From NCBI RefSeq assembly GCF_012290005.1, contig NZ_JAAXMS010000001.1, positions 372,001 through 436,000 on the forward strand: a stretch of DNA of 64,000 nt. The letters are read 5' to 3'. Below are positions 11,518-31,859 of the stretch, piece by piece; within the stretch, counting starts at the first letter, position 1; every line of letters begins with the position of its first letter. The notes under the pieces are model-generated. The model did not search any database and was not told the DNA's origin. It saw only the letters and a list, made by a program, of their open reading frames with translations. The position numbers and the translations under genes are program-made. Origin of the DNA: Crateriforma spongiae (GTDB lineage Bacteria; Planctomycetota; Planctomycetia; Pirellulales; Pirellulaceae).

Positions 11518-11544
11518 AAAACTAACCCTACGAACCAGCACCAC

Positions 11545-13977: not shown

Positions 13978-16900
13978 ATGCAAAAACTAACAACGCAGCA
14001 TCGATGGCTCGTGGCCGCGATGGTGGTCATGGCAACGATTGCCGATGCCAACGCACAACAGGGAACGGACTATTCCCTTTTGGCCCAGCCCACGTATGCC
14101 GATCGGTTGAAGCTGACGGACCAACAACGTGCCAAGATCGCGGAGATTTTGGACCAGCGGGTTAGCGAATTGGTCAAGGTCGCCAGTGACCGTCGCGATG
14201 ACGTGGTCAAAGATTCCAACGCGCGTTTGGCCGCCGTGCTGACACCCGAACAACGTGCCGCGTTCGACAACGTTCATCAAAGTGGAAAGATTCAGTTCAA
14301 CTTCCGCGGCCAGCCTTGGTCCAGTGTGCTGCAATGGTTTGCCGACCAAGCGGATTTGTCGCTAGTGATGGACAGTGAACCGTCGGGGAAATTCACCTAC
14401 AGCGACACGAATGATTACACGCCGACCGAGGCGATCGACCTGCTGAACAGTGTGTTGCTGAGCAAAGATTACACGCTGATCCGTCGCGAAAAGATGCTGA
14501 TTCTTGCCGACACCAGCGACGGAATCCCCTTCGAGATTGTGCCGACAGTGTCGGTCGACAAATTGGCCGAGCGTGGCAAGTTTGAAATCGTTTCCACTGA
14601 GTTTCCCGTCGGCGCGCGTCCAATGGATGTGGTCGTTCAGGAAGTCACGCCATTGGTCGGATCGCACGGCCAAGTCACACCGATGGCCGCCGCCAAGAAG
14701 TTATTGGTGACTGAAACTGCCGGAAAGCTTCGTGCGATCAACATTCTGATTGCATCGATCCCGGAACCCAAAAAGCCCGAACCCAAAGAAAAGAAAGAAG
14801 CACCCAAACCGGTCTTTGCAACCTATCCGGCACCCGGGCTTGATGGCGAAGCGACGGTGGAAACGCTGCAAGCCTTGTTTTCATCGGCACAGATTCGCTT
14901 TGATCCCAATGCCGACGAAGTCCATGCGCACGCAACGCCGGAAATGCAAAAGGGCATCGAAGCCAGTATCCAGAAAATGATCGAAAACGCGTCCGGGGAC
15001 AACGCGGATGCGGTGACAACTTACGATGTCGATCCCGATCGTTTGGACGACTTGGTCGAACAGGTTCAATTGGTGCATCCCGATGTCCAGGTGAAAGCCG
15101 ACGCGGATAACCAACGCATTCTGATCGTCGGCGATGCACGTCAACAAAACGCGGTCCAGACGACGTTGCAACGATTGGACGTGGGGGGATCGGGCGGCAG
15201 CGATGGGGCACTTGCCGTGGCCATTCACCAAGTCGATCCGGATTCCACCGATGCGTTGTCGGCTTTGGTTCAAGACGTCGTCCCACGTGCGCTGGTGCTG
15301 TCGCAACCGGGGCGAATCGTCATCCGGGGCAATGCGGGCGAATTGTCGATGGCCAAAGAAACCATCGACCAATACCCGCGTGATCCGGCGTTGGAACGAA
15401 CCCTTACGTTCTACCCTTTACAGCAACCACTCAGCCGTCAAATGCTGACGATGCTGACCAAGGCGGTACCTGATGCCACTGTCGAATGGTTGGACGATGA
15501 AGGCCGGTTAAGCGTTGTTGCGACCCAGCGCGAACACCAACGTGTCACCGAAACACTGGCCCAAATCGAACAGGCGGGCGGCGCGTCATCGCGTCAATTG
15601 AAGCTGTATCCGATCAGTCAATTGCAACGTGATCGATTTGCAATGATCCAGCGTGATCTGCCCGAATCGTTATCCACGATGAAGATCAATCCCCAAGCCA
15701 GTTTGACCGAAATGGCGGCGTGGGGAAGCGAACGTCAACACGCGGAATTGACCAGCTTGTTGGCACAATTGGATGTGGGAACCGACGATACGACGATCCC
15801 CGTTCAAACGTTGGCGGTGGACGTTGAAGACGACCGAACACTGTTGGCTTCGTTGCGAAAACGGTTCCCGCAGTTGGAGATGATTTACAACGATGAGATG
15901 GAGGTGTTATCGGTCTGGGCACAGGAAGAGGAATTCGAAAAGGTCCGTCAAGAATACGACAAGCTGGCGGCAGCGTTGCCACCACGAAGGGAACCAGTGC
16001 TGGAAACCTACGCCGTCGACGCCGCAGACCTTTCCAATCTGCAACGCAACTTGCAATCTTTGGTGCCCGATGCAGTGGTGACCGCGGATTCGGCCAACGG
16101 ACGATTGATTGTGCGTGCCACCGCGGAAGATCAAACGGAGGTGCAATCGCTGATCGAAAAATTGTCGACTGATGCAACCACCGATCGCGGTGTGACCATC
16201 GCTTATCCGCTGGAAAAAGGCGATGCGGATGCCATCGTCAAACTGCTTTCGCGGATGCAGCCTGAATGGAAAATCGTCGCCGACGAACGGTCCAATCGCG
16301 TTTTGGTCGCCGCACCGCTGTCGCAACAGCCTCGGATTCAAGCTCTGGTTCGGCAATTGGATGCCGACCCGGACCAAGCCAGCCAAACCAGCGTGGTTTC
16401 GTATCCGTTTCGAACGTTGAACCCCGGCAACGTTTTGCGAATGCTACAGCCGCTGTTTCCGCGTATGCGTTTGACCGTTGATGCCGACAGCAAGCAATTG
16501 GTGGCATCCGGAACCGGCCTGGATCATCAGGAACTTGCGCAAGCGATCGCACGTGTCGATGGAAATCGTTCGACCCAAACGTCCAAAGTGGTGGGCTACG
16601 ATCTGGGCGACACGAAAGCGGAAGAGGTGGAAAACGTATTGATGCAACTGGTTCCAGCTGCGGTCATTTCGTCCGATCCAGACGAGAGCCGTATCTTTGT
16701 TTGGGCGGACCAGGAAGACCATCAGGCCGTGGCCGAAGCGATCGACCAATTCACCCAAATGACGGGTAAATCCGACTTCAGCTTGCGGACCTACCCTTTG
16801 CCGGTCCGAATCGGGCCGACCGCCATCACCATGTTTCAGTCGATGGCCGATGACGCGGCGTTCTCGTTGGATCAGTCTCGTGAAAACCTGGTCGTGTGGG

Positions 16901-19900
16901 CAAGTAAAAAGGATCACCAGACGATTCAAACAGCGTTCGATCAACTGAATCAGCAGACGTCGAAATCGGACGACCAAGTCTTGCGGGTGTATCGCGACAA
17001 GCCGGAAGTCATTGCGCTCGCGACGGAGGTCCTGGACGACATTGCCCCCGATGCACGGTCGGTGGATGCGGAGGCGGACGATCGGCTGATTCTGTGGGCG
17101 ATCCCCGACGAACACGATGCGATCGAATCCTTGCTGGGACGTCTGCGAACCGAACTCGGCGGCGATGCCACGGACCGAAAGGTTGGCGTGTATCCGATCT
17201 CCGATTTCAGCGTTGAAACGGCCGAAAGTATGTTGCGCGAACAGTTGCCGGACGCGACCGTGTTGGAATCTGATGACTATCAGTTGATGGTCTTGGCGAC
17301 CGAACAGGAACATGACCAAATCAAGGCCATGTTGGAACAGTTGCGTCAGGCGAACCAAGACCGAAAGTCGTCCGTCCTGCGGCAACACCCGGTCCGCAAG
17401 GATTTGTTGCCAGAGATCCGCGAACATCTGGAAGACGAGATTCCGCAGTTGCGATTCGTCGACAGCGAATCGGAAGATGCACTTTCCATCTGGGCAACAG
17501 AGCAGCAACACGAACGAATCGTTGCTTTGATCGAGTCCTTTGAAACTGCGATGAAGCCGGAACCGGATCCGCTGGTTCACGTGTATCCGATCGACCCCGA
17601 GAAGATGGCCGCCTACACGGTTTACCGGGCTTTGGATCGGCGACTGGTTGGATTGATGGGAGTTCAGATCAACAACGAAAGCAACAGCCTGGTCGCACGC
17701 GGGACGCCTGCACAGCAAGCGGAAATTGGTCAAGCGATCGAGGCGATCGTGTCGCAGTTGCCCGATGCCCAACGTCGCCGAACCGCCGTTTATCCACTCC
17801 AGATGGCGGATCCCACTTCCGTTTCCCGAGCCCTAGCGCGATTCGCCACCGATGCGACCATCGTTCCCGAACCCGAGTCTTCCACGTTGATCGTCACGGC
17901 GCTTGAAAAGGATCACGAACGCATCGCCGAGGTGATTGACAAGTTGGACGTCGTGTCTGGTCAACAACCTGTTGTCCAAGCGTATCCGATCCGGCACGGT
18001 GATCCTCAGGCAATTTACCGGTCCGTTTCGCTGGCTTTTCTGCGCAACCCCGATTATTCAATCACCTATCAAGACGCCAGCAAAACACTATTCGTGATCG
18101 CCAAGCCACGCAGCCAAGCGACGTTTGCGGAAATGTTCCAGTCGTTGGATGTTCCCGAGAGCAAACGAGAACTGAAGGTCTATCCTTTGGAACTGGCCGA
18201 TGCGGTGTCCATCATGACCGCCGTGCGTGACGCGGAAAAAGATGCCGTCGTCACCGCCGATCGAGGTTCCAATTCGCTGTTGGTGACGGGAACCGAGCAG
18301 TCGCATGAGTCGGTTGCAAAGATCATTCAGTCGCTAGACGTCGCCTCCGGGACCGAACCCGTTTTGAAAGCGTACCCCATTCGCAACGGGGACCCCGCCG
18401 CCGTGTCTCGTGCTTTGACATTGGCGTTCTATCGAAACCCAAACTACACCGTCAGCTATCAAGCCGTGAACGAAACGGTTTTCGTGACCGCGACACCGAA
18501 GCATCAAGCGATCTTTGCGGAAATGTTTGAGGCGATGGATGTGCCGGAAAGCAAAAAAGTCCTGAAGGTCTATCCCTTGGATTTGGCTGAACCTTCCGCG
18601 GTTGCTCGAGCCGTTTCCAACGTAGCTTCCGATGCAACCGTCGTCGCCGACAGTGGTTCCAGTTCGTTGTTGGTCACCGGAGATGATGAAGACCACGCCG
18701 TCATTGGTGAATTGATCGAACAGTTGGACGTCGTTTCCGGACAGGAGCCAATCGTCGAAGCTTATCCGATCAAAAACGGCGATCCGACGTCCGTTTCACA
18801 GGCGTTGACACAAGCGTTCCTACGTGACCGCAACTACGTCGTGACCTATCAAAGTGCCAACGAAACCATCTTCGTGACCGCGACGCCGCGTTATCAAGCC
18901 ATCTTTGCCCAGATGTTCGAATCGTTGGATGTCGCCGAGGGAAAGAAAGAACTCAAGGTATATCCACTGAAGTTGGCCGATCCCGATTCGGTGGCCGATG
19001 CCATTGCCGACGTACGTCCCGAAGCCATCGTGTCGGCGGACGAAGGTTCAAATTCACTGTTGGTGACCGGAACCGATGACACCCATGAAGCGGTGCGTGG
19101 TGTCGTCGAACAGTTGGATGTCGCATCAGGTCAAGAACCTGTGGTCCGCGCCTATCCCATTCGCAACGGTGACCCCGCATCGATTTCGCGATCTCTGTCG
19201 ATCGCGTTTTATCGCAACAACGATTTCAACATTACCTATCAACAAGACACTAGCACCGTTTTTGTCATTGCAACCCCACGCAATCAATCTACCTTTGCGG
19301 AGATGTTCCAATCGTTAGACGTTCCCGAGTCAACGAAAAAGTTGAAAGTCTATCCGTTGACACTGGCGGATCCCGATAGCGTCGCCGAGGCAATCGAAGA
19401 CTTGGCCCCGACCGCCACGGTCACCGCCGACGCGGGATCCAATTCGATCATGGTGACGGGACCTGACGACGTGCATGCCAAAGTCGACGAAGTGATCGGT
19501 CAATTGGATGTCGCGTCCGGGCAGGAACCCGTCATGCGGGCCTATCCGATTCGAAACGGTGACCCCGACGCGATCGCAGATTCCATCATTCGGGCGTTCG
19601 CACGCAGTCGCGACTATTCCATCACCTACCAGGAATCGAACGAAACCTTGTTTGTGCTGGCAATGCCAAAGCATCAAGTGGCAATCGATGAAATGCTTCA
19701 AGCGATGGATCAGCCGCCACCGCAGCGACCGGCGCAAACGTCTCAACTTTATCCGCTGGCCAACGTCAGCGCGACGGTCGCCGCATCGACGATCGATTCG
19801 ATCGTCCAAGATGAAGTTCCGCGTCCCGAGGTTCTAGCCAATCGAACCAGCAACTCGCTGGTCGTGGTCGCGACGGATCAGCAGCATTCTCGAATCGCCC

Positions 19901-21279
19901 AGGCACTTCAGAAGCTTGACGGAGACGAGCGGATCCTGGAAGTCTTTCAATTGCGAACCACCGATCCCTACATGATCGAAATGGCGGTTCGCGATCTGTT
20001 TGCCGGATTGATCGGGACCAGCCGGCCGTACGTTTCGACCGACTATGGCACGAACAAGATCTTTGTGCGCGGGACCGAAGAACAATTGACCCAAATCCGT
20101 GCGTTACTGTCCAAGTTGGGCGAACAAGTGGACGAGGGGGAAAAAGCGGTCGCCGCATTGGGAACTGGGACCACGCGTCGTATTCCGTTTTCCGGCGATA
20201 CCGAATCGGCGGTGCGTCAGATGCAATCCGTTTGGTCGCGGATCCGGGGAAATCGCATCAAAGTCATCTATCCGGCACAGCAGCGAAGTGGCGATGCGAT
20301 ACCCTGGCCTGGCGAATCACCAAAGCAGGAATTCGCTCCCGAGGAGCAAGGGAAATCCGACAGTGCGATGGACCCGGCAACCGATGCACGCGTCGAAGGG
20401 ATCGTAACGGGCGTTCGGCTGGTGGCACAGCAAGACACGCTGCGTGCTGCCCCGCCCGCGCCAGCGACACAAGATGATCAAGGTCAAGCCAACGCATCGC
20501 ATGAAGAACAAGTTGATGCATCGGAGGGCTTGTCGGATGTGGTCGTCATCCCAGGACCCGACAGCATTACGATTTCCTCGGAGGACACCGAGGCTTTGGA
20601 TCGCATGGAAACGCTATTGCGTGGGATGAGTCAATTGGGGCCCGCTGAAGCATCCGATACCAACTTTGCGGTGTTCATGCTGCAAAACTCTGGCGCGATC
20701 GACATGGAAATGCTGTTGAAACGCTTGGTCGATGAAATGCCGTTCATGCGAGGCGGGCTGACCGACGCCGTGGTCGTCTCGGACGAACGATTGAACGCAT
20801 TGATTGTTTACGGAAGTCCTCGAACTCGAGAGATCGTCGGTGACCTGTTGGAGGTCTTGGACACGGATGAACTGCCGGACTTTTTGAATGTTTATCGGCC
20901 CGAAATCATCAACTTGGAGAACACGCAAGCCGATCGTGTTCTGACAATCCTGCGGACGGTGTATCGGTCGCAGATGAGTACCGCCGGTGGGCGTCGACCG
21001 CTACAGGTCCCACGGGGCGTTGGTGCGTCGGTGGCTTCGGTGCTGCAACAATTGAATGCCGCTGCGGCGGGGCCATTGTTGACTTTGGAAGTGGACGAGG
21101 CGGCCAATGCACTGATCGTCCGCGCGCCGGCGGAACTTCGCGATGAGATTCGATCGTTCGTGACGGAGATGGATCAGCGGGCGCTGAACCAAAGCAACCG
21201 AAACGTCAAAATCATTCGCCTGAAACGCTCCAAGTCTGACAGCATCGAACGGGCATTGCGCGAATTCATCGCCAGGTGA
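13978..21279 (+). CDS. Giant secreted protein of ~29 secretin-type N-modules, no secretin pore
   Basis: 2433 residues. Signal peptide MQKLTTQHRWLVAAMVVMAT, with cleavage expected after ANA. Residues ~35-95 resemble an LTxxQ-type helical segment (LTDQQRAKIAEIL, LTPEQRAAFDNV). Residues ~100-180 resemble an N0/STN domain (FNFRGQPWSSVLQWFADQAD). From ~275 to the C-terminus run about 29 modules of 57-66 residues of the secretin N-domain (NolW-like) type. Each reads roughly: YP(L/I) near its start, then DP..V..AL, a D.A.VTAD.GSNSLLV strand, then H..V...I.QLD. Residues 1272-1921 form five exact 130-residue two-module units. Modules near the C-terminus carry Ala/Gln-rich inserts. The frame stops just inside a further module (IIRLKRSKSDSIERAL). 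The secretin beta-barrel domain seen in the GspD protein encoded at 31955-35443 is absent. The gene lies immediately upstream of the gspE-led operon but has its own terminator. Role inferred: periplasmic scaffold, spacer or ring stack working with the type II secretion machine. Confidence 0.85.
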   Translation: MQKLTTQHRWLVAAMVVMATIADANAQQGTDYSLLAQPTYADRLKLTDQQRAKIAEILDQRVSELVKVASDRRDDVVKDSNARLAAVLTPEQRAAFDNVHQSGKIQFNFRGQPWSSVLQWFADQADLSLVMDSEPSGKFTYSDTNDYTPTEAIDLLNSVLLSKDYTLIRREKMLILADTSDGIPFEIVPTVSVDKLAERGKFEIVSTEFPVGARPMDVVVQEVTPLVGSHGQVTPMAAAKKLLVTETAGKLRAINILIASIPEPKKPEPKEKKEAPKPVFATYPAPGLDGEATVETLQALFSSAQIRFDPNADEVHAHATPEMQKGIEASIQKMIENASGDNADAVTTYDVDPDRLDDLVEQVQLVHPDVQVKADADNQRILIVGDARQQNAVQTTLQRLDVGGSGGSDGALAVAIHQVDPDSTDALSALVQDVVPRALVLSQPGRIVIRGNAGELSMAKETIDQYPRDPALERTLTFYPLQQPLSRQMLTMLTKAVPDATVEWLDDEGRLSVVATQREHQRVTETLAQIEQAGGASSRQLKLYPISQLQRDRFAMIQRDLPESLSTMKINPQASLTEMAAWGSERQHAELTSLLAQLDVGTDDTTIPVQTLAVDVEDDRTLLASLRKRFPQLEMIYNDEMEVLSVWAQEEEFEKVRQEYDKLAAALPPRREPVLETYAVDAADLSNLQRNLQSLVPDAVVTADSANGRLIVRATAEDQTEVQSLIEKLSTDATTDRGVTIAYPLEKGDADAIVKLLSRMQPEWKIVADERSNRVLVAAPLSQQPRIQALVRQLDADPDQASQTSVVSYPFRTLNPGNVLRMLQPLFPRMRLTVDADSKQLVASGTGLDHQELAQAIARVDGNRSTQTSKVVGYDLGDTKAEEVENVLMQLVPAAVISSDPDESRIFVWADQEDHQAVAEAIDQFTQMTGKSDFSLRTYPLPVRIGPTAITMFQSMADDAAFSLDQSRENLVVWASKKDHQTIQTAFDQLNQQTSKSDDQVLRVYRDKPEVIALATEVLDDIAPDARSVDAEADDRLILWAIPDEHDAIESLLGRLRTELGGDATDRKVGVYPISDFSVETAESMLREQLPDATVLESDDYQLMVLATEQEHDQIKAMLEQLRQANQDRKSSVLRQHPVRKDLLPEIREHLEDEIPQLRFVDSESEDALSIWATEQQHERIVALIESFETAMKPEPDPLVHVYPIDPEKMAAYTVYRALDRRLVGLMGVQINNESNSLVARGTPAQQAEIGQAIEAIVSQLPDAQRRRTAVYPLQMADPTSVSRALARFATDATIVPEPESSTLIVTALEKDHERIAEVIDKLDVVSGQQPVVQAYPIRHGDPQAIYRSVSLAFLRNPDYSITYQDASKTLFVIAKPRSQATFAEMFQSLDVPESKRELKVYPLELADAVSIMTAVRDAEKDAVVTADRGSNSLLVTGTEQSHESVAKIIQSLDVASGTEPVLKAYPIRNGDPAAVSRALTLAFYRNPNYTVSYQAVNETVFVTATPKHQAIFAEMFEAMDVPESKKVLKVYPLDLAEPSAVARAVSNVASDATVVADSGSSSLLVTGDDEDHAVIGELIEQLDVVSGQEPIVEAYPIKNGDPTSVSQALTQAFLRDRNYVVTYQSANETIFVTATPRYQAIFAQMFESLDVAEGKKELKVYPLKLADPDSVADAIADVRPEAIVSADEGSNSLLVTGTDDTHEAVRGVVEQLDVASGQEPVVRAYPIRNGDPASISRSLSIAFYRNNDFNITYQQDTSTVFVIATPRNQSTFAEMFQSLDVPESTKKLKVYPLTLADPDSVAEAIEDLAPTATVTADAGSNSIMVTGPDDVHAKVDEVIGQLDVASGQEPVMRAYPIRNGDPDAIADSIIRAFARSRDYSITYQESNETLFVLAMPKHQVAIDEMLQAMDQPPPQRPAQTSQLYPLANVSATVAASTIDSIVQDEVPRPEVLANRTSNSLVVVATDQQHSRIAQALQKLDGDERILEVFQLRTTDPYMIEMAVRDLFAGLIGTSRPYVSTDYGTNKIFVRGTEEQLTQIRALLSKLGEQVDEGEKAVAALGTGTTRRIPFSGDTESAVRQMQSVWSRIRGNRIKVIYPAQQRSGDAIPWPGESPKQEFAPEEQGKSDSAMDPATDARVEGIVTGVRLVAQQDTLRAAPPAPATQDDQGQANASHEEQVDASEGLSDVVVIPGPDSITISSEDTEALDRMETLLRGMSQLGPAEASDTNFAVFMLQNSGAIDMEMLLKRLVDEMPFMRGGLTDAVVVSDERLNALIVYGSPRTREIVGDLLEVLDTDELPDFLNVYRPEIINLENTQADRVLTILRTVYRSQMSTAGGRRPLQVPRGVGASVASVLQQLNAAAAGPLLTLEVDEAANALIVRAPAELRDEIRSFVTEMDQRALNQSNRNVKIIRLKRSKSDSIERALREFIAR
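17791..19740 (+). repeat. Five exact-length 390-bp coding repeats (two-module units)
   Basis: The Tyr codon of the 'VYPL' motif recurs at 17791, 18181, 18571, 18961 and 19351; the Tyr codon of 'AYPI' recurs at 17983, 18373, 18763, 19153 and 19543. Each unit is a 64-residue B module (YPL.LADP) plus a 66-residue A module (YPIRNGDP). Spacing is exactly 390 bp without indels, while the base sequence between copies differs at many positions. The next B module starts at 19750, nine bases out of register, which marks the end of the array. Confidence 0.9.
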
Positions 21280-21376: not shown

Positions 21377-21681
21377 CTCGCTTGTGGTTTGTTAGCGGTT
21401 TCCTGTGTGCCCTAGATGGGTTCGGCCGCTTGTCCAAATTCGCCAGAACCGTCAATCGGTATCGACCGACGAATCGGAATGTCCATCAGCGGTACCGGCC
21501 GTTTATACTGATAGTTGGTCGTCCGGTTACACCGTCCGGACGGCCCGTCACGACATTGCGTCGTTGACGAACTTTCCCGCCTTCACGGTGCCCCACCCCA
21601 CCAACGACCGGCCCGATGGGTGATCCCACGCACAGCGCATCTGTGCCAGGGACGCACACGTTTTGCCGGCCCCACCGAACG
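21377..21681. other. Leader region of the secretion operon
   Basis: About 305 bases between the terminator and gspE. A TATACT at 21504-21509 could be a -10 element, but I find no matching -35 hexamer at the usual distance. No gene is visible. Confidence 0.35.
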
Positions 21682-23370
21682 ATGTCTCAAGACGTTTCCA
21701 CCGCTGGCCGGTTGGACAAGCATCAGCTGGCCAGTGCCGCTGACGCGATTCGATCGCAGCGTCCGATTCAAGACTTCGCGCCCGAACTCGGGTTCGAAGA
21801 CGCATCCGGATTGTTGCGCGCGATCGCCGATTCGATGCGGCTGAAATTGGCGGACCTGACCGACATCGAGATCGACGAACAGATTCTCGAAGGATTTCCC
21901 GTTCGTTTGATTCACCGCTATGAAGTGTTTCCGATCGCTAAAGAATCGGACGCTTTGGTGGTCGCGCTGAGCAACCCCTTTGATTTTCAAGCGATCGATG
22001 CGCTAAGCGCCGCGACGGGGCAAATCATCCAGCCGGTCGTCAGTGATCCGGAACAAGTCCGCGATTTGATCAAGCGGTTTCTGGGCGTGGGTGCCGAAAC
22101 GATCGACGGTTTGCTGGCACTGCAGAAAGACGAGGACTTGGGTGAACTGAATTCGTTGACCGGGCAAGATCTGGAAGATGCGGAAGTCGCCCAGCAAGCC
22201 TCCGTGGTGCGATTGGTCAACGAGATTCTCAGCGAAGCCATCGAAGCGCGCGCCAGTGACATTCACATCGAGGCTCAAGAAAAAGGCATCAAGATTCGCT
22301 ATCGGATCGATGGCGTTCTGCAGCGTCAACCGGCGCCGCCGGAGATGAATCAATTTCGGTCGGCGATTGTCAGCCGGCTGAAAATCATGGCGCGTTTGAA
22401 CATTGCCGAAAAGCGTGTCCCCCAAGACGGTCGAATCAAGATCCGCGTCAAAGGACGCGAAGTCGACATTCGCGTTTCAATCATCCCGATGCTGCACGGA
22501 GAAGGGATCGTCATGCGGGTCTTGGACAAGGAGAACTTGCGGTTTTCACTTGCCGACATCGGGATGCCCGATGACGTCTATCAACGCTTTCAAAAACTAA
22601 TCCGATTGCCTCACGGGATCATCTTGGTGACCGGGCCGACGGGCTCGGGAAAAACGACGACGCTTTACAGCGCACTCAGTGAGATCCAGGACGAAGAAAC
22701 CAAGATCATCACGACCGAAGATCCGATCGAGTATCAGTTGGAAGGCATCAACCAAATCCAAGTGCACAAAAAGGTCGGGCTGACGTTTGCGGCCAGCTTG
22801 CGAAGCATCCTGCGGCACGATCCTGATGTCGTTTTGGTTGGCGAAATTCGCGACTTGGAAACGGCCGAAAACGCCACACAGGCTTCGCTGACGGGACACT
22901 TGGTTTTCAGCACCCTCCACACCAACGACTCCGCCGGCGCGTTCATGCGATTGTGTGACATGGGCGTGGAACCGTTTCTGGTCAGCAGCACCGTCGAAGG
23001 TGTGATGGCGCAGCGGTTGGTACGCAAATTATGCCCGGAATGTCGTGAACCTGATCTGCGTCGCCAAGCGGATTTGCCCGACGATTTTCCGTATGAGCAA
23101 GCCAAGGAAAACGGCACAGTGGTCTACCGTCCCGTTGGATGTTCGGCCTGTCGCGGCAGCGGGTACCGCGGCCGGATGGGCCTGTACGAATTGCTGGTCG
23201 CCAATGACGAAATCCGCGACTTGGCTACCAACCAAGCGGCCAGCAATGAGATCAAGAAAGCCGCCGTTCGTGGCGGAATGAAGACGCTCCGCCAAGACGG
23301 GTGGAACAAAGTCATGCAAGGCGTCACATCGATTGATGAAGTCTTGCGTGTCACCAAAGCTGACGCCTGA
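21682..23370 (+). CDS. gspE: Type II secretion ATPase GspE/PilB family
   Basis: 562 residues from the ATG at 21682 (the frame extends 22 codons upstream without support). This is the cytoplasmic hexameric ATPase that powers pseudopilus assembly. The N-terminal ~130 residues are the GspE N-domain (EGFPVRLIHRYEVFPI). The ATPase core has Walker A GPTGSGKT at 318-325, the Asp box with the ASDIHIEA motif, Walker B PDVVLVGEIRDLETAE and a His box (GHLVFSTLHTND). A tetracysteine zinc site CPEC...CSAC lies in the C-terminal part, as in GspE/PilB. All catalytic motifs are intact and the length matches the family. It is the first gene of the operon; the downstream gap to gspF is 60 bases. Confidence 0.97.
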   Translation: MSQDVSTAGRLDKHQLASAADAIRSQRPIQDFAPELGFEDASGLLRAIADSMRLKLADLTDIEIDEQILEGFPVRLIHRYEVFPIAKESDALVVALSNPFDFQAIDALSAATGQIIQPVVSDPEQVRDLIKRFLGVGAETIDGLLALQKDEDLGELNSLTGQDLEDAEVAQQASVVRLVNEILSEAIEARASDIHIEAQEKGIKIRYRIDGVLQRQPAPPEMNQFRSAIVSRLKIMARLNIAEKRVPQDGRIKIRVKGREVDIRVSIIPMLHGEGIVMRVLDKENLRFSLADIGMPDDVYQRFQKLIRLPHGIILVTGPTGSGKTTTLYSALSEIQDEETKIITTEDPIEYQLEGINQIQVHKKVGLTFAASLRSILRHDPDVVLVGEIRDLETAENATQASLTGHLVFSTLHTNDSAGAFMRLCDMGVEPFLVSSTVEGVMAQRLVRKLCPECREPDLRRQADLPDDFPYEQAKENGTVVYRPVGCSACRGSGYRGRMGLYELLVANDEIRDLATNQAASNEIKKAAVRGGMKTLRQDGWNKVMQGVTSIDEVLRVTKADA

Positions 23371-23430
23371 CCATGGCGTTTGGCTCCAACATGAAATGTG
23401 AATCCTGACCGAACCTCGTTCCAACCAACC

Positions 23431-24654
23431 ATGCCCAATTTCGCTTATCGTGCCAAAACCGCCGGTGGTGACAACGCCGACGGAACGATCATCGCGGGTG
23501 ACGCCCGCGAAGCGATGGCGTTGTTGCGTCGCCAGGCCTTGTTTCCCATCGAAGTGACCGACCGGTCCGCCCGATCCGGTGCCTTCGAATGGAAGCTGGA
23601 TTTGCCCAAGCGGGTCAAAGCGGAAACGATCGCCGACACGCTGACACAGTTGAGCGATTTGTTGAACGGCGGCGTCACGCTCTTGGAATCGCTGACGATT
23701 CTGGCCGAACAGAGTGCCGACGAAACGATGGCGGATGTCTTGGCCGACGTTCGTGATCGTGTTGCCGATGGAGAGAACTTGGATGAGGCACTTGCGGCAC
23801 ACCCCAAAGTGTTTTCCGAATTGGTGGTCAGCATGGTCCGCGCAGGACTGGAAGGTGCATTCCTAGAGGAATCCCTGCAACATGTCGCCGGGTTCCTACA
23901 GAAGCAGGATGCGATTCGCGGCAAGGTTTCCGGTGCCATGACCTACCCCATCGTTTTGATGGTGGTCGGCGGCATCGTCACCGTGGTGCTGGTGATGTAC
24001 GTCGTGCCGATGTTCGAACCGTTCTTTGAACGATTGCAACGCAGTGGGACCGGTTTGCCACTGGCGACCGTCTTGCTTTTGGCTCTCAGTCATTCGCTGG
24101 TGCGATTCGGCGTGTTCGTTTTGATCGCCGCTGCCGGCGTGGTCGTGATGTTGCGTCGAGCGGTGGGGACCCCCAAAGGCCGCCGTGTTTTGGATCGGCT
24201 GAAGTTAAAGATCCCGATCGCCGGATCGATCTTTCATTCCATGGCGGTTTCTCGATTCTGCCGCGTTTTGGGGACACTGCTACGCAACGGCGTCCCGCTG
24301 CTGAAGTCGCTGGACATCAGCAGCACTTCGACGGGAAACGTCTTGTTGGCCGAAACGATTCAGAAAGCGTCTGAAAACATTTCATCCGGAAATTCGCTTG
24401 CAGCGCCGCTGGCCGCCAGCGGTCTGATTCCGCCCCAGGTGATGGCGATGATGCGAGTGGCGGAAGAATCCAATTCTTTGGATTCCGTGCTGGTCAAAAT
24501 CGCGGACCGAATGGATGAGAAAACCGAGCGCAAGTTGGATGCAATGGTGCGTCTGATAGAGCCGCTGATGTTATTGATCATCGGGGCGATGGTGATGTTC
24601 ATCATCGTCGCGGTGTTATTGCCCGTTTTCGATATGAACACGGCGTTGGATTAA
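23431..24654 (+). CDS. gspF: Type II secretion inner-membrane platform protein GspF
   Basis: 407 residues from the ATG at 23431, which begins the family's typical N-terminus MPNFAYRAKTA; the in-frame GTG at 23398 only adds 11 unsupported residues. Two T2SSF domains are visible: an N-terminal cytoplasmic helical bundle (DTLTQLSDLLNGGVTLLESL) and its repeat (VSRFCRVLGTLLRNGVPLLK). They are separated and followed by membrane helices near residues 170-195, 225-245 and 375-400. The length is standard. GspF sits in the inner membrane, contacts GspE and GspL, and is the presumed platform on which pseudopilins are extracted and assembled. It is placed between gspE and gspG, as in classical gsp operons. 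Confidence 0.97.
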   Translation: MPNFAYRAKTAGGDNADGTIIAGDAREAMALLRRQALFPIEVTDRSARSGAFEWKLDLPKRVKAETIADTLTQLSDLLNGGVTLLESLTILAEQSADETMADVLADVRDRVADGENLDEALAAHPKVFSELVVSMVRAGLEGAFLEESLQHVAGFLQKQDAIRGKVSGAMTYPIVLMVVGGIVTVVLVMYVVPMFEPFFERLQRSGTGLPLATVLLLALSHSLVRFGVFVLIAAAGVVVMLRRAVGTPKGRRVLDRLKLKIPIAGSIFHSMAVSRFCRVLGTLLRNGVPLLKSLDISSTSTGNVLLAETIQKASENISSGNSLAAPLAASGLIPPQVMAMMRVAEESNSLDSVLVKIADRMDEKTERKLDAMVRLIEPLMLLIIGAMVMFIIVAVLLPVFDMNTALD

Positions 24655-24698
24655 AAAACATGCCCACAATCAATTTCTCTGTTCGAAGGATGAATTCA

Positions 24699-25244
24699 AT
24701 GAAACGTCATCAACGTATTCGCGTCGGTTTCACGCTGATTGAGCTGATGATCGTCTTGGTGATTTTGGTGATGTTGTTCGCCATTGCGGGACCCCGATTG
24801 CTGGGGACTCAGAAGAAGGCCGATATCAAGAGCACCAAAGCACAACTGGGAAACCTGGAGGCATCGTTGAAGCTCTATGCGGTGGACATGCGGACCTTCC
24901 CCAGCACCGAGGACGGTTTAGCGGCCCTGATCAAACCACCAGCCGACGAAGCAAAGGCACGCAAGTGGGATGGGCCTTACTTGGATGACGAAGTCATTCC
25001 GGCCGACGCCTGGGGAAATGCATTCGTATATGAGTATCCGCCGACACAAGGTGGTCGTGACTTCCCCAATATTTCTTCACCCGGTTTGGACGGCGAACCA
25101 GACACCGAAGATGACATCGTCAACTGGCGAGCCACTGAAGATGGCGAAGACGGTGAAATGGGAACGATGGATTCGGGCGACAGCTTTGACACCGGCGATT
25201 CAATGTCCACCGACATGTCTTTTGACACAGGGGACGCCTTATGA
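24699..25244 (+). CDS. gspG: Major pseudopilin GspG with acidic C-terminal extension
   Basis: 181 residues from the ATG at 24699, preceded by GAAGGA at eight bases; ATGs at 24660 and 24690 are less well placed. The prepilin leader ends RVG before FTLIELMIVLVILVMLFAIA, with Glu5 of the mature protein present. The globular part has the GspG pattern LKLYAVDMRTFPSTEDGLAAL, PYLDD, DAWGNAFVYEYP and SSPGLDGEPDTEDDIVNW, which includes the calcium-loop region. GspG normally ends here; this protein continues for about 35 residues of Asp/Ser/Gly/Thr/Met (SGDSFDTGDSMS...). It is the main subunit of the periplasmic pseudopilus and needs a prepilin peptidase not encoded in this window. The stop overlaps the next start by 4 bases. 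Confidence 0.95.
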   Translation: MKRHQRIRVGFTLIELMIVLVILVMLFAIAGPRLLGTQKKADIKSTKAQLGNLEASLKLYAVDMRTFPSTEDGLAALIKPPADEAKARKWDGPYLDDEVIPADAWGNAFVYEYPPTQGGRDFPNISSPGLDGEPDTEDDIVNWRATEDGEDGEMGTMDSGDSFDTGDSMSTDMSFDTGDAL

Positions 25245-26020
25245 ACCATCGCGCTTTCACCTTGCTGGAACTAATCATCGTGCTGTCGATCATGGTCGCG
25301 GTGATGGGAATGTCTTGGCCTCGGATGCGGCGGGCTGCCAATCGTGCGGTGCTGCGTGAAGCGGCGCTGCAGGTGAAAGCCGGTTTAGCCGAGGCACGCG
25401 ACCGAGCGGTGCGCACCGGCCAACGTTCCAGCTTTTCGTTCCAACAGAACGGTACCGAGTTTGTCATCGCAACCACGGATCTTCGTGCGGCCGGTTCGCC
25501 TGACGAAAGTTTGATGATTTCGGTGGTATCGGAAGAATCGAACGGCTTTGAATCGGTCGCGAACGAATCGATCGACGAGTCGGCGGATGCCGAAAACAGT
25601 TTGAACGGCGGGCAGTGCGTGAAGCACTCGTTACCCGAACCTGTGACCATTGCGTCGGTTCAATCGGACGATATCGACGAATCGATCTTGGATGTGTCCG
25701 CTGTGACCGACGATGTATCGACTGTCGAAGCCGAGTCATCACAAACCATCGCGTTTTTCCCGGACGGTCGAGGGTCCGCAGCACAGATTCGTTTGGGCAG
25801 TGCGGACACCCAGGAGATGGTCGTGTTGACCGTCCGTGCACTGACCGGTGACGTCACGATTGGCGACATCGAACGAGACCCGGCGATGGTGCTGGAACAA
25901 GACGATCTGTCAGTCGGCCCGTCGGTGGAGACCGAGTTCCAGTCCACGCTTCCCGAATCCGCAGTGATGGATTCGGCTGACGATTTGATTCCCACCACAG
26001 GCTGGGACTTTTCGACGTGA
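25241..26020 (+). CDS. gspH: Minor pseudopilin, GspH-like
   Basis: 259 residues. The start ATG overlaps the gspG stop (ATGA). The prepilin leader is very short, MNHRA before FTLLELIIVLSIMVAVMGMS, so the residue before the cleavage site is Ala rather than the usual Gly. The following region (RRAANRAVLREAALQVKAGLAEARDRAVRTG) matches the GspH/FimT helix that precedes the beta domain. After ~90 residues comes a long acidic Glu/Ser/Asp-rich segment that is not typical of GspH (usually ~170 residues), then a short strand region ending with a Trp-Asp-Phe motif. Assigned to GspH by leader type, the AEARDRAV helix and operon position; the distal part is lineage-specific. It is expected at the pseudopilus tip or base in the inner membrane and periplasm. 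Confidence 0.8.
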   Translation: MNHRAFTLLELIIVLSIMVAVMGMSWPRMRRAANRAVLREAALQVKAGLAEARDRAVRTGQRSSFSFQQNGTEFVIATTDLRAAGSPDESLMISVVSEESNGFESVANESIDESADAENSLNGGQCVKHSLPEPVTIASVQSDDIDESILDVSAVTDDVSTVEAESSQTIAFFPDGRGSAAQIRLGSADTQEMVVLTVRALTGDVTIGDIERDPAMVLEQDDLSVGPSVETEFQSTLPESAVMDSADDLIPTTGWDFST

Positions 26021-26457
26021 TTCGGCGTTCGGCAACCGATGCGTTTTCGCTGTTGGAAGTGATTGTTTCCACCGCGATTTTGGTCACCAGTTCGATGATC
26101 TTGCTGCGACTGATCGCGGTGGGATCGAAGCACCAAGATCGCAGCGAGCGACGGGCTTGGGCCCAGATCGTTTGCCACGATTTGGTCGACCAATGGGTGA
26201 TTGACCCCGTGTCGATTGATAGCGTTGATCGATCCCCCGTCCCCGGCCACCCGGGCTGGGACTATGAAGCGGAGGTGGCGGCGACTGATTATCCCGGCGT
26301 GCGTCGTGTCCGAATTCGAGTCTTCGCAAATGCGTCCGTTCAGGATGATGCGATCGCCGCGGCGTCGCAGTCGACCGAGTCCGAGTTGGATGCACGCCCA
26401 ACCTTTGAATTGGTGCGATGGATGCGAGTTCCTGATCGACCGGGGGCAAGCGGATGA
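26017..26457 (+). CDS. gspI: Minor pseudopilin, GspI-like
   Basis: 146 residues starting at GTG with a 4-base overlap (GTGA) with the preceding stop. The prepilin segment reads A before FSLLEVIVSTAILVTSSMIL, with the conserved Glu5. The remainder is a small alpha/beta domain (WDYEAEVAATDYPGVRRVRIRVF) of about the size of GspI. The SLLEV motif and the position between H- and J-like genes support the I-type assignment; primary sequence alone is weak. Like its neighbour it has Ala rather than Gly before the cleavage point. Confidence 0.75.
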   Translation: MIRRSATDAFSLLEVIVSTAILVTSSMILLRLIAVGSKHQDRSERRAWAQIVCHDLVDQWVIDPVSIDSVDRSPVPGHPGWDYEAEVAATDYPGVRRVRIRVFANASVQDDAIAAASQSTESELDARPTFELVRWMRVPDRPGASG

Positions 26458-27629
26458 AACCGTCCATCGCACCGGATCGTCAACCATTGAAGCCTAAACG
26501 GATTGGCGCGGCAAAGCGTGGGTTCACGTTGCTGGAAACCGTCATCGCCATGACTCTGGTTTCGGTTTTGATGCTGTTGGTGTGGTCGATTTTCGGAATC
26601 TACACCAAGCTGGAAAACAAAGGTGTCAACGCTGCGAACCGCGTGTCTTTGGTTCGGTCGTTTCATCGGCAAATGCGTGACGATCTGGTCCGGTTGCTGC
26701 CGTGCGACATCGATCGTTCCCTGCCCACTGCAAATTTTCAAAACGCTGGCTTTTCCGATGACGGTATTCACAACGGGTACTTTTCGGGGGACCGACAACG
26801 GATTCGCTTTGCAATCGTTCAGCGGCGTCCGGATGCAACTGGTCATGTGGTTCGTTTGGTAACGTATCGCCCCGCCACGGCCGCCGATTTACCGGGCGAC
26901 GACGAATTGCGGGTGTCCGGCGATGGTGGTGATCGCCGTGGTGACGAAGCGATGGAAATCGACGCCATGGAGTCCGAAGCTGGCCGTCTGGATGAATCGT
27001 TGGATCAAGTCCAACATCTAGGAATCGTGCGAGTTGTCGAATCGTGGGACAGTTTTCTTGAATCGGTGGAATTGTCCGAAGCAATCGACGGCGTGGATTC
27101 TGGCCGCCAGCAACTGGCATTGGATGCGGACGATTTTATGACCATCGGTCCGGCCGACTTGACGGACGAATCGGTCGAGCAAGAAACCGAACGTGATCGA
27201 CAGCAAGATTTGGTCCCTGAAATCGCTGATTGTCAGTTTCAGTTTTTCGACGGCCAAGTCTGGCGAAGTCGGTGGGAATCGTCGGTTCGCAACGGATTGC
27301 CACGTGCGGTGGCGGTCACCGTCGATGTTATTGAATCGCAGGATCCGGACACGCCGGACGATGAAGATGACGCATCGGATGAAGTCGTGATCGGACCAGA
27401 TGACGAATGGTCCGATGACCAAGACGTCTTTGCATCGGATTCGGGCGATCCTTTGGTTGGGGCGCAGGACGTTTCTGTGGAGACCGAAGTCGACGACGGT
27501 GTCGTCGCGGCGTTGGGCGATCAACCGGTTCGCTGGGTGATCGCTCTCAGCCAAGCGGCAACGGAACCCGTCAACGATTCTCAGCGGTCAGCGGATCCCG
27601 ATGCGGCTGATTGGGGGGGCCTGCCATGA
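26454..27629 (+). CDS. gspJ: Minor pseudopilin, GspJ-like, with acidic insert
   Basis: 391 residues, with the start overlapping the previous stop by 4 bases (ATGA). The prepilin leader KRG precedes FTLLETVIAMTLVSVLMLLV, with the GspJ-type FTLLE..IA pattern. The stretch VSLVRSFHRQMRDDLVRLLPC resembles the GspJ region where arginines follow the hydrophobic helix. The protein is nearly twice the usual GspJ length because of acidic Asp/Glu-rich segments at roughly 140-250 and 285-350. A C-terminal beta region (CQFQFFDGQVWRSRWES, GLPRAVAVTVDV) matches the end of the GspJ fold. Role: minor pseudopilin forming the I-J-K tip complex. Confidence 0.82.
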   Translation: MKPSIAPDRQPLKPKRIGAAKRGFTLLETVIAMTLVSVLMLLVWSIFGIYTKLENKGVNAANRVSLVRSFHRQMRDDLVRLLPCDIDRSLPTANFQNAGFSDDGIHNGYFSGDRQRIRFAIVQRRPDATGHVVRLVTYRPATAADLPGDDELRVSGDGGDRRGDEAMEIDAMESEAGRLDESLDQVQHLGIVRVVESWDSFLESVELSEAIDGVDSGRQQLALDADDFMTIGPADLTDESVEQETERDRQQDLVPEIADCQFQFFDGQVWRSRWESSVRNGLPRAVAVTVDVIESQDPDTPDDEDDASDEVVIGPDDEWSDDQDVFASDSGDPLVGAQDVSVETEVDDGVVAALGDQPVRWVIALSQAATEPVNDSQRSADPDAADWGGLP

Positions 27630-28990
27630 GACGGTTGGCTTCACTTTCCACGCATTCGGCAAAGGTGTTGGGGCCTAAACCAAGGCAAGGAACGGTCATC
27701 ATCGTTGTGTTGGTGATCGTGATTTTGATCAGCTTGGCGGCATACAACTTCACCTTGTCGATGGAGTCAGAGCATCTGGCGACTCGAAACGGCGGTGACC
27801 GTTTGGCTTGTCGCCAAGCAGCGTTTTCCGTTGCGGAGGTCTTGGCGTCCATCATGGAACGTCCGCGTAGCCAAAGAATGACTGACACCTTACCGATCAA
27901 CCAAACGATTGATCTTTGGCCCGATGATACCGATTCCGCCGACGAATCTGATTGGAAGCTTCAGGCTGTGGTGTACCAAGGTCCAAACGCCAACGGATCC
28001 GAATCTCCGCAACGGTTGTTGACCGAATCGGCGAAGTTGAACTTGCGATCTTTGGGACCAAGTGGGGCACCAAGCCCAGATTCTTTACAGCAAAACCTGC
28101 TTCGACTTCCTGGGATGACCGCGGAAACAGCGGCGGACATTCTGCAACGTCTTGGGGGATCGATGCGGAATCCTGGCAAGCCTGTGGATGCTGGGCCCGC
28201 CATGGTTGAATTGCTGCCGCAGCGGACGTCCGATTCGTCATCCGATTCCGATAACCCGAGCGACACTTGGCGAACGTGGGTGACGATGTGCAGCGCCGAA
28301 AGAAACGAGACCTTTGAAGGGTTGCCACGCATCAACATCAATGGAGAATCGCTAACCCAATTGCATCAACAACTTAGCAAGCGGGTGCCTTTGCCGGTCG
28401 CAGACTACATTGTGCTGGCGCGACAACATGGCATCGAAAAATCATCCTCCGCCAATACACCGCTTGATTCGGTCAATGTGGATCTGAACCGGCGACCGGT
28501 CTATCGATTTGAAAGTCTGGCCGAACTCTTCGACAGTGCGGTGTCCGTTTCGGTGTCGAATCGGAAGCGGCAATCCGTGGCGAGTCCGATCGATCGCGTT
28601 AATGGTGCCGCAGGGATGGATCTGGCACGGTTGTTGGATCAATTGACGCTGACATCCGCACGTCGATTGGTCGGTCGTGTCGATGTTGCAACGGCACCGG
28701 TGGAAGTGCTTGCCGCGGTGCCCGGGCTGGATACGACATCGGCCGGCGCAATCGTCAACGCACGGTCGTCCGATTCCAATGGCTGGGTACATCCGATCGC
28801 CGCACTGGCGGCAAGCGGTTTATCCGCGACCGTCGTCGACGCGGCATTGCCGTATCTAACGGTGGGTGGCGATGTCGTGAAAGTGACCGTGGTCGGACGA
28901 TTGGGAGATCACGGTCCATCGTATCGATGTCGTGTTTTGGTGGACGCATCGTGGGGAAAAACGCGTTGGAGCGTCTTGTCGGTTCAGTGA
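27626..28990 (+). CDS. gspK: Minor pseudopilin GspK-like
   Basis: 454 residues from the ATG at 27626, which overlaps the gspJ stop (ATGA); a TTG 15 bases upstream is a poorer choice. After a basic N-region comes a hydrophobic segment (TVIIVVLVIVILISLAAYNF) without the Glu5 of other pseudopilins, as is typical for GspK. The body has the GspK arrangement: AACRQA-like helix (RLACRQAAFSVAEVLASI), helix-hairpin-helix-like segments (LPGMTAETAADILQRLGG and VPGLDTTSAGAIVNAR), and a C-terminal strand pair ending in the 'KTRWSVLSVQ' strand. GspK caps the pseudopilus tip with GspI and GspJ. A gap of 22 bases leads to the gspL-like gene. Confidence 0.9.
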   Translation: MRRLASLSTHSAKVLGPKPRQGTVIIVVLVIVILISLAAYNFTLSMESEHLATRNGGDRLACRQAAFSVAEVLASIMERPRSQRMTDTLPINQTIDLWPDDTDSADESDWKLQAVVYQGPNANGSESPQRLLTESAKLNLRSLGPSGAPSPDSLQQNLLRLPGMTAETAADILQRLGGSMRNPGKPVDAGPAMVELLPQRTSDSSSDSDNPSDTWRTWVTMCSAERNETFEGLPRININGESLTQLHQQLSKRVPLPVADYIVLARQHGIEKSSSANTPLDSVNVDLNRRPVYRFESLAELFDSAVSVSVSNRKRQSVASPIDRVNGAAGMDLARLLDQLTLTSARRLVGRVDVATAPVEVLAAVPGLDTTSAGAIVNARSSDSNGWVHPIAALAASGLSATVVDAALPYLTVGGDVVKVTVVGRLGDHGPSYRCRVLVDASWGKTRWSVLSVQ

Positions 28991-29012
28991 CAAGTTCGCA
29001 GATGTAGACAGC

Positions 29013-30803
29013 ATGAATCAGCAACTTCAGAAAGAGCCACGTGCCGTGAACCTGTTTCAAAAGCAACGACCGCGACGTTCCACGCTTTCGGTGGTCGTGG
29101 ATGCCAGCGATGAAGTCGCAAACGTTTTGGTGATTGACCGCGGTCAGCACCCGCCGAAAATTGTGCAGCGATGTCGGCTGGAGCCACCGGACAATCCGAC
29201 GGATAACGCATCCGATTCATCCGCCGACGCGCCCGATGCCGATGCGGAAACGCCGGACACCAGCAAGGTTTCGGATGCAAATTTGGTGCGACAGTTTCTG
29301 GACCAGCACAAGTTGCGGGCGTCTTCGGTCATTCTGTTGTTAACGCGACCGGACGTCGAAATCATCACGGGTAACTTACCGTCGGCCGATGACCATGAGT
29401 TGCCAGAGATGGTTGCCGCCATGGTGATGCAGGAAACCGATGACGGTACCCCGCGTGAAGTTGATTTTCTGGTGGGGGCCTCCGATTCCAAGACCGACGG
29501 CGAACTGGTCCATGCGGTGACTTGTACCTCAAGTCAATTACAAGCCTGGCGAGATGAATACAAGCAGGCGGGATTACGTCTGGAGATCGTGACGTACGCC
29601 GGTTTGGGAATCATGAACATTCTGGACCAGCAGACATCGACATCGGGTTTATCGATCGGTGTCAGTTGCACGCATACGAAGACCGAGTTGGTGGTCGTCA
29701 AAAATCGCCGTCCGGTCTTGATGCGAACTATTCAACGGGGCACCGATCTCCAGGAACGGTTGGCGCCCGTCCTCTCGTCGGAATTGCAACGTACGGCGGC
29801 CTATTTAAGCGACGAAGACGACCCGGCGATGCAGGTCTGGTTGCTGGGCGACCAAGAGATCTTTGGCGACGCTGCCAAGGATATCTCCGGTGCATTGGAT
29901 TGTGAGGTTTCGGTGTTGGAACCCGACCGAATGCTCGCCTGCCCCGATGATGCCCTGGGGCGATGGACGGAGAATGTCAATGCGATTGGCCATCTTCTTG
30001 ATGCCGATTCGGAATCGCCCGCTGTGAATTTGGTTTCTCCCAAGCGTCCGCCACGTCAACCAAGTCCCTATCGACGCTATGCGATATGGGGCGGTGTCGC
30101 CGCTTCTCTTCTGTTGATGCTGGGCTACTTTGCATGGCAAGACCGAAGCGAGCAATTGGATCAGATCGAAAAGAAACGCGAGACGCTGAAAAAATTGGGC
30201 GGCCGAGCCAACAAGGCGATGGAACTTCAGGACATCGTCAACGCGGTGGCTTCCTGGCGTTCGGGTGAAGTGATATGGCTGGACGAAATCAAAGACCTTT
30301 CCGATCGACTTCCGGCCAAGGATTTGGCTTTGGTACGACGATTTTCGGCACAATCCACGTCCGATGGCACGGGCGTTTTCGACTTGAGTCTGCAAGTCAA
30401 GTCGCCCGAAATTGTGACGGAACTGGAAGCCGCGATTCGGGACAATCGTCACAGCGTTAGCAGCAAGCGTGTCAGCGAGGTTGGTGATTCCAAAGAATTG
30501 GATTGGGCTTTCGAGACCCGAGTGGCGTTTCAGCCGCAGCGACGTCCGCTTCGGCCTGTTAAGAATCCAGAGCGTCCGCCAAGTGACGATGTGCAAGCAT
30601 CGGAGTCGGAGCATAAATCCGACGCAAATGATGAATCGCGGGTACCACGTTCCCCCAGTGATACCGCCCCGCCAGCGGAATCCAACGGCGGTGCGGCAGA
30701 ATCAAAGTCCGATGAATCAACCGGTGGGGAAGACGATGCGACGACGTCCGAAACTCAGGTGATCGATTCAGCATCCGTTGGAAACGGGGGAGCACAACGA
30801 TGA
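29013..30803 (+). CDS. gspL: GspL/PilM-PilN-like inner membrane protein
   Basis: 596 residues from the ATG at 29013; the frame opens earlier but overlaps gspK without support. The N-terminal ~350 residues look like the actin-like cytoplasmic domain of GspL/PilM (VVVDASDEVANVLVIDRG, LLLTRPDVEIITGNLP, GVSCTHTKTELVVVKNRRP). A single membrane helix follows (YAIWGGVAASLLLMLGYFAW, ~380-400). Then come a coiled helix (LDQIEKKRETLKKLGG) and a PilN/GspL periplasmic ferredoxin-like domain (LSLQVKSPEIVTELEAAI). The last ~90 residues are a Ser/Asp/Glu-rich tail. Role: connects the GspE ATPase to the periplasmic parts. It is followed directly by the gspM-like gene with a 4-base overlap. Confidence 0.85.
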   Translation: MNQQLQKEPRAVNLFQKQRPRRSTLSVVVDASDEVANVLVIDRGQHPPKIVQRCRLEPPDNPTDNASDSSADAPDADAETPDTSKVSDANLVRQFLDQHKLRASSVILLLTRPDVEIITGNLPSADDHELPEMVAAMVMQETDDGTPREVDFLVGASDSKTDGELVHAVTCTSSQLQAWRDEYKQAGLRLEIVTYAGLGIMNILDQQTSTSGLSIGVSCTHTKTELVVVKNRRPVLMRTIQRGTDLQERLAPVLSSELQRTAAYLSDEDDPAMQVWLLGDQEIFGDAAKDISGALDCEVSVLEPDRMLACPDDALGRWTENVNAIGHLLDADSESPAVNLVSPKRPPRQPSPYRRYAIWGGVAASLLLMLGYFAWQDRSEQLDQIEKKRETLKKLGGRANKAMELQDIVNAVASWRSGEVIWLDEIKDLSDRLPAKDLALVRRFSAQSTSDGTGVFDLSLQVKSPEIVTELEAAIRDNRHSVSSKRVSEVGDSKELDWAFETRVAFQPQRRPLRPVKNPERPPSDDVQASESEHKSDANDESRVPRSPSDTAPPAESNGGAAESKSDESTGGEDDATTSETQVIDSASVGNGGAQR

Positions 30804-31699: not shown

Positions 31700-31828
31700 T
31701 GCCCGTCGGTCCACGCCGTCGGTTGACTGAGGGTGAACCCGATTGCCGGCCGGCACGTGGGGAAATTCCCGTCGTCTGGGCGTCGTTCGCGGGGCAAAAA
31801 TCGGCAAAAACAAAGGAAAAATGAACTG

Positions 31829-31859
31829 GTCCGCTCAGTCAACTTGACATCGAGCGGAC
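31829..31859 (+). promoter_or_regulatory. Nested inverted repeat upstream of gspD
   Basis: An 8-bp outer stem (GTCCGCTC/GAGCGGAC) encloses a second 5-bp stem (GTCAA c TTGAC). It lies in the 255-base gap before the secretin gene, the only large gap in the operon. TTGACA at 31844-31849 overlaps it and could be a -35 element, but no good -10 is visible. It has no T-run, so it is not a classical terminator. It may be a binding site or leader structure tuning secretin expression. Confidence 0.4.

Follow-up and report, generated by a model that had tools for sequence, protein, structure and literature searches.

A giant pore-less protein of secretin N-modules beside a type II secretion operon of Crateriforma spongiae, apparently a split and greatly expanded secretin periplasmic part

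Analysis of a 64,000-nucleotide window of the Crateriforma spongiae genome identified, immediately upstream of a type II secretion system (T2SS) operon, an uninterrupted ATG-initiated open reading frame for a protein of 2,433 amino acids (aa; positions 13978 to 21279, forward strand) carrying an N0 domain and about 30 secretin N-modules. This giant N-only secretin protein, called the giant below, appears from its sequence to be a split and greatly expanded periplasmic part of a T2SS secretin, with giant secretins of other lineages, in which array and pore are fused in one chain, as its counterpart. The arrangement is apparently undescribed; no account of giant or long planctomycete secretins was found in the open-access papers searched, and one may exist elsewhere. 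Our preferred reading, which we regard as probable, is that the giant would be the enlarged periplasmic half of the split secretin and would lengthen the stack from the inner-membrane platform to the pore. It builds on direct observations: a giant without a pore, a GspD without an N0, their domain content and fold, the conservation of the giant, its co-occurrence with one T2SS class, and the fused form.

The features of the giant and its operon are listed in Table 1. Pfam Secretin_N (PF03958), the profile that the first-pass annotation of this DNA had proposed for checking its reading, matched 21 stretches (whole-protein E value, 9.3e-155), and an HMM built from the giant's own modules identified 30, close to the ~29 counted in that annotation. 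By this HMM, 28 of the 30 lie at residues 223 to 2047 with a spacing of ~65 residues, and the last two (residues 2246 to 2296 and 2348 to 2400) follow a linker that gave no module matches. The secretin barrel, already reported as missing, was not found with Pfam (PF00263) or with our own pore HMM. Against the NCBIfam GspD equivalog TIGR02517 the giant scored 306.8 bits, below the cut-off of 351.35, and this score came from the N-module stretches; lacking the pore and scoring under the cut-off, the giant falls outside the definition of a GspD. The GspD N0 family (PF21305) matched below threshold (E value, 0.024), and an N0-N1 profile made from 30 family members matched GspD N-domains in the PDB (E value, 1.4e-5). 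The signal peptide described at first pass was also seen by eye. The LTxxQ-like motif in the helical segment ahead of N0 could likewise be recognized by eye, although its match to LTXXQ/Spy (PF07813) was sub-threshold (E value, 0.79; 10.9 bits against a gathering score of 24.3).

Table 1. Features of the giant N-only secretin protein and the adjoining T2SS operon (positions within the window)
Feature	Coordinates	Strand	Basis and remarks
Giant N-only secretin protein (N0, ~30 N-modules, no pore)	13978..21279	+	ORF, Pfam, own HMM
Signal peptide, residues 1-26; likely cleavage between ANA and QQ (MQKLTTQHRWLVAAMVVMATIADANA followed by QQ)	13978..14055	+	By eye
LTxxQ-like helical segment, residues ~40-100	14095..14277	+	By eye, giant and relatives
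N0 domain, residues ~103-179	14284..14514	+	PDB profile match and AlphaFold2 model
N1-type module, residues ~204-262	14587..14763	+	AlphaFold2 model; colinear with PulD N0-N3
27 contiguous N-modules, ~65 residues each, residues ~279-2050	14812..20127	+	Own HMM, AlphaFold2, Foldseek
Sub-array of five 130-residue two-module units, residues 1272-1921	17791..19740	+	Between-unit identity
Variable linker, residues 2060-2200	20155..20577	+	dN/dS; no module matches (own HMM)
C-terminal part with two more N-modules, residues 2200-2433	20575..21276	+	Own HMM; kept in giants
gspE ATPase	21616..23370	+	Pfam T2SSE, E value 1.1e-141; class A clade in gspE tree
gspF	23398..24654	+	By order alone: position between gspE and gspG, conserved in relatives
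gspG major pseudopilin	24660..25244	+	Pfam T2SSG, E value 2.4e-27
gspH-like pseudopilin	25241..26020	+	Pfam GspH, E value 4.4e-7
gspJ-like pseudopilin	26454..27629	+	Pfam T2SSJ, E value 6.4e-7
gspK-like	27611..28990	+	Pfam T2SSK, E value 0.0023, sub-threshold
Probable gspL	28932..30803	+	Placed solely by location and conserved gene order; Pfam gave no match
GspM-like protein with extra C-terminal domain	30800..31699	+	PilO and T2SSM_b at E value 0.02-0.04, in relatives only
gspD secretin, pore and ~6-8 N-modules	31733..35443	+	Secretin, E value 3.3e-42; Secretin_N, 6 stretches; likely true start ~31955

Two parts of the giant were modelled with AlphaFold2, as had been suggested at first pass, and both are predicted to fold as secretin N-modules. 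The model of residues 95 to 612 (alignment of 49 sequences) had a mean pLDDT of 84.8 and a pTM of 0.40, with block pLDDT values of 92 to 96 in the N1-type module, and that of residues 1262 to 1920 showed ten beta-alpha-beta-beta-alpha repeats with a pLDDT of 77.7 and a pTM of 0.32. The repeat pattern was present in both models, and the top Foldseek matches of both were T2SS secretins. PulD (6hcg_A) was the best structural match to the first model (Z score, 13.5), covering N0 to N3 (model 12 to 309 against chain 27 to 338) with an rmsd of 18.8 because the placement of the modules differs. The modelled N0 alone aligned to the N0 of enterotoxigenic E. coli GspD (4jtm) with a Z score of 11.2 and an rmsd of 2.3 over 79 residues, and together with the PDB profile match this strengthens the earlier call of an N0-like domain. 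Another fold for the modules (KH, BON) was considered and rejected, as KH models matched weakly, as related folds, and the best structural matches were T2SS secretins. By these predictions the fold of the modules is settled, and their relative placement is left open by the pTM values. Compared with GspD, PulD, and XcpQ N0-N3 (PF21305 and PF03958; 6hcg, 4jtm, 3ezj, and 5mp2), the giant has the same N0 fold and the same type of module in the same order from the N terminus; it differs in having ~30 rather than 3 modules after N0, in lacking the pore, and in being a chain separate from GspD.

Low pTM combined with well-folded modules, and the dips in pLDDT between modules, would also suit a monomeric or low-copy tether, a beads-on-a-string chain without rings that runs from the inner-membrane platform to the outer-membrane secretin or peptidoglycan and takes the role of GspC or GspB/OutB. 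Of the alternatives to a split, lengthened stack, this flexible tether is the foremost, and on the whole we think it unlikely. Any long repeat would be expected to give a low pTM when a monomer is modelled, and isolated secretin N-domains form rings (PMC5646246).

A second genome of the same genus carries the giant intact, with 96% protein identity, and the dN/dS between the two was 0.077 over the whole gene, which identifies a conserved gene rather than a chance reading frame; a frame disrupted in close relatives would have told against the first-pass reading. Values were 0.01 in the N0-N1 region and 0.03 in the array of two-module units, and the linker reached 0.31 versus 0.01 to 0.11 elsewhere. 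N0 and N1 were the best-conserved part of the giant family, and the C-terminal part retained 35 to 44% identity to more distant giants. The five 130-residue units shared 47 to 59% aa and 58 to 64% DNA identity with each other, and other module pairs were mostly 15 to 35% identical (cells of the identity matrix such as 66, 77, and 100 were left out as free-end-gap artefacts over few aligned residues). A recent tandem duplication of the units was rejected given their DNA identity of 58 to 64%, a level that indicates an old array. Divergence among the modules would leave room for different ligands if the giant were a T2SS assembly, sorting, or substrate-binding factor, its array holding exoproteins or pseudopilins in the periplasm while the channel is not extended. 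We judge this role improbable, since it is the terminal parts of the giants, N0 included, that are most conserved.

Downstream of the giant the operon follows the order gspE-F-G-H-J-K-L-(M-like)-gspD and ends at 35443. The adjacency to gspE noted at first pass was borne out, as the two genes share a strand and are separated by 336 bp. A gap of this size would permit separate transcription. It contains a terminator-like hairpin with a T run (21353 to 21371), which was dropped as a terminator because it was absent from the same-genus copy and nine other relatives; terminator-like sites numbered 14 against 13.5 expected. In the window's GspD no N0 was matched, and the first module directly follows the probable signal peptide. 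The complete Pirellulales secretins that were examined likewise had no N0, whereas the giant carries one. The GspC HR domain (PF11356, T2SSC) was not found in the C. spongiae genome at E values up to 1, with control genomes positive, a result that would be in keeping with a tether acting in place of GspC, although a diverged partner of N0 may be present. The extra C-terminal domain of the GspM-like protein could itself stand in for GspC. A GspC-like HR read by eye in this C terminus ('RRNLF...') was rejected for want of PDB or Pfam support, and hhalign gave no similarity between the C terminus and E. coli GspC.

The comparison was extended to 60 genomes (that of C. spongiae and 59 relatives). 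Pore-less giants occurred in 17 of these, including contig-truncated copies in two (G024 and G034), and complete ones ranged from 1,614 to 3,749 aa with 15 to 48 modules, a variation that a tether would easily accommodate. In nine genomes, the congener (G001) included, the giant immediately precedes gspE (G000, G001, G005, G008, G025, G031, G033, G037, and G044). One more (G012) has a single cluster in which the run from gspE through the GspM-like gene is joined by a gspD of divergent orientation and by the giant itself. G023 and G056 carry the giant away from gspE, and in three genomes (G010, G011, and G017) the contigs end before its position relative to gspE can be read. With the N0-N1 profile, 80 named loci were also fetched from Rubripirellula, Pirellula, Blastopirellula, and other Pirellulales. 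The closest named relatives were from Rubripirellula and other Pirellulaceae, in line with the planctomycete origin proposed earlier. Complete N-only reading frames in these loci fell into two groups, with 5 to 6 or 15 to 34 modules. Those longer than 1,550 aa numbered 35, one of which (L227) had 6 modules, and gspE lay ≤3 kb downstream in 15 of the 23 that had at least 3.5 kb of downstream flank; other giants had gspD upstream and divergent. Over all loci, 51 complete N0 proteins had no pore and 13 or more modules, a count in which a few genomes are represented twice through two overlapping collections, and our pore HMM was negative in all 51, the window's giant included. The first-pass annotation had proposed checking the gene's position next to gspE across Pirellulaceae. 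Most giants whose surroundings could be resolved neighbor gspE or gspD, and at least those of G023 and G056 are unlinked to gspE. Genomic association supports the giant as a putative T2SS component, with a linkage that is not universal.

The two T2SS classes present in these genomes could not be separated by gspE identity or score alone, as the classes overlapped at 63 to 64%, and a FastTree phylogeny of 71 gspE sequences from the compared genomes was therefore built. Giant-associated gspE formed a single clade (class A; support, 0.996) in which 19 of 19 tips belonged to genomes encoding a giant; genomes without one had their best gspE outside the clade. Giants and class A gspE co-occurred without exception among the 60 genomes (raw counts, kinship ignored); a lack of co-occurrence with gsp operons had been named in advance as grounds for abandoning the first-pass reading. 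The same result bears on the idea that the neighborhood is incidental and that the protein serves, for example, a cell-envelope structure or surface adhesion. Giant genes abound in planctomycetes (PMC5177795), and not every giant is linked to gsp genes, yet the exceptionless co-occurrence, the N0 with its secretin modules, and the fused forms with a pore in T2SS operons make an incidental association very improbable indeed.

The second T2SS class is widespread and is also present in most giant-bearing genomes. Beside its gspE there is often a short N-only paralogue (~1,000 to 1,400 aa; 5 to 6 modules), as seen in eight genomes (G000, G003, G007, G013, G021, G028, G036, and G111). C. spongiae itself encodes further N-only proteins at C1:781498-783870, C4:5572-7833, and C8:176895-179162, the first of which (L071:6136-9300) is a 1,054-aa short paralogue directly upstream of the gspE of the second T2SS. 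Like the giant, the short proteins have N0-N1 and modules, lack a pore, and often lie directly upstream of gspE; unlike it, they have 5 to 6 rather than 15 to 48 modules, and several carry a Gly-rich tail. Their position next to T2SS genes implies a function that does not depend on length, which would suit an assembly, sorting, or substrate-binding role. In G111, a more distant planctomycete of the same class, placed in the order Planctomycetales by kinship, GspD (L145:305-4303) and its operon neighbor, the short N-only protein, each have an N0, so that one N0 per system is not a general rule.

Characterized secretins have few N-rings. The first-pass annotation had relied on this contrast, which does not hold within this phylum. 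Among the phylum-wide N0-N1 matches listed, those in other lineages included open frames of 3,500 to 5,073 aa, and the eight examined in full (L128, L130, L132, L134, L136, L138, L140, and L232) each encode N0, 34 to 50 modules, and a canonical pore in a single chain of 3,564 to 5,073 aa, so that few known secretins, if any, are possibly larger. Pfam Secretin confirmed three of them (4,624 aa, E value 3e-45; 3,564 aa, E value 8e-47; 4,999 aa, E value 3e-49). In the two genomes checked (G141 and G301), the fused giant closes a run of T2SS genes, in the place of gspD. In several genomes it was the sole N0-N1 match among those listed, and a split N-only protein thus appears absent from them. The fused giants resemble the window's giant in the N0-N1 start, the long N-module array, and, in those two genomes, the T2SS setting; they differ in having the pore in the same chain, in their 34 to 50 modules, and, in several genomes, in the lack of a separate N-only match. 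Rather than the stand-alone, pore-less oddity first described, the window's giant appears to be the N0-bearing half of a split secretin, with short paralogues and fused counterparts.

That a one-chain form exists elsewhere is our strongest reason to think that the giant acts jointly with its GspD. It also speaks against a tether, because an array held in cis with a multimeric pore implies many copies around the axis in the fused giants, and against a binding factor, as it favors a structural place in the channel. Two further secretins, of 2,328 aa (L141, in G306) and 2,175 aa (L147, in G322), have N0, ~8 detected modules, and a pore, and the former ends in a long Pro-rich tail.

Known T2SS secretins are 15-fold barrels with a basal N0 bound to the HR domain of GspC and extend ~20 nm into the periplasm (PMC6882859). 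Isolated XcpQ N0-N2 forms dodecameric rings ~8 nm high without a pore (PMC5646246). The PilQ of Thermus thermophilus has six rings that span most of a wide periplasm, belongs to a machine described as one of the largest of its kind characterized, and had its rings linked by the authors to periplasm width (PMC5745081). It thus resembles the giant in having N-rings beyond the usual number and in the wide periplasm invoked, and differs in having six rings, in being one chain with its pore, and in serving DNA uptake and a type IV pilus. The T2SS of mitochondria has a split GspD, some Secretin_N domains residing on other proteins, and GspD and GspDN1 interact in the yeast two-hybrid assay (PMC8134430). 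GspDN1-3 share with the giant the location of Secretin_N domains on chains apart from the GspD pore; unlike the giant, they are eukaryotic proteins of single or half domains without N0, so that size has changed in the opposite direction. Taken together, the XcpQ rings, Thermus PilQ, and the split mitochondrial GspD suggest that lengthening the secretin on its periplasmic side is the most likely role of the giant. An extension of the secretion machine, as claimed at first pass, is accordingly still the best reading of N-modules, a missing pore, and association with gsp genes; the stand-alone scaffold gives way to an N0-bearing half.

In the proposed split secretin, the giant would be exported to the periplasm and its N0 would sit at the inner-membrane side of the T2SS, with the C-terminal modules oriented toward GspD. 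Its ~30 N-modules would continue into the 6 to 8 N-modules and pore of the separate GspD, making up the periplasmic part of the channel between assembly platform and outer membrane. This would lengthen the periplasmic section several-fold (~38 modules versus 4), and at 2 to 2.7 nm per ring 30 modules would measure ~60 to 80 nm, which is an estimate only. From the comparisons above we infer the physical partnership of giant and GspD, their orientation, and a stacking of multimeric rings over extended chains, as well as the length and a purpose of spanning a wide periplasm. Counting against such a stack are the pTM values of 0.40 and 0.32, the unlinked giants of G023 and G056, the N0 on both G111 proteins, the lack of a recognizable GspC, and the possible separate transcription of giant and gspE.

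The planctomycete periplasm varies in width, is sometimes very wide, and is deeply invaginated, and crateriform structures are sites where the membranes stay close; their molecular identity is not given in that study (PMC5394234). We tentatively suggest, as a possibility that falls short of being probable, that planctomycetes build stacks of ~30 to 50 N-rings, ~60 to 120 nm long, from one fused protein or from two docked ring to ring, which would carry T2SS cargo or pseudopili across the wide periplasm, possibly at crateriform structures. The link between the giant and these structures is speculation, and it would make the protein a candidate constituent of them. Arrays of 30 to 50 modules, split or fused, bear on how a T2SS bridges a periplasm of variable width and deep invagination (PMC5394234), and they raise the testable question of whether ring number sets length. 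The split form offers a natural system in which N-ring function is separated from the pore, and a way to ask what N0 binds when GspC cannot be recognized.

Several other genes of the window are of note. A reading frame upstream of the giant (11578 to 13557), whose true start is probably later than listed, has AHG and QCYSGG motifs like those of clan CD (caspase-like) peptidases and no Pfam match. Further upstream, positions 5181 to 10967 encode a 1,928-aa protein with no Pfam family above cut-off and, by eye, very many membrane-spanning stretches. On the reverse strand, positions 11167 to 11892 encode an RRM-like RNA-binding protein with a Gly-rich tail, the listed start of which is probably too early.
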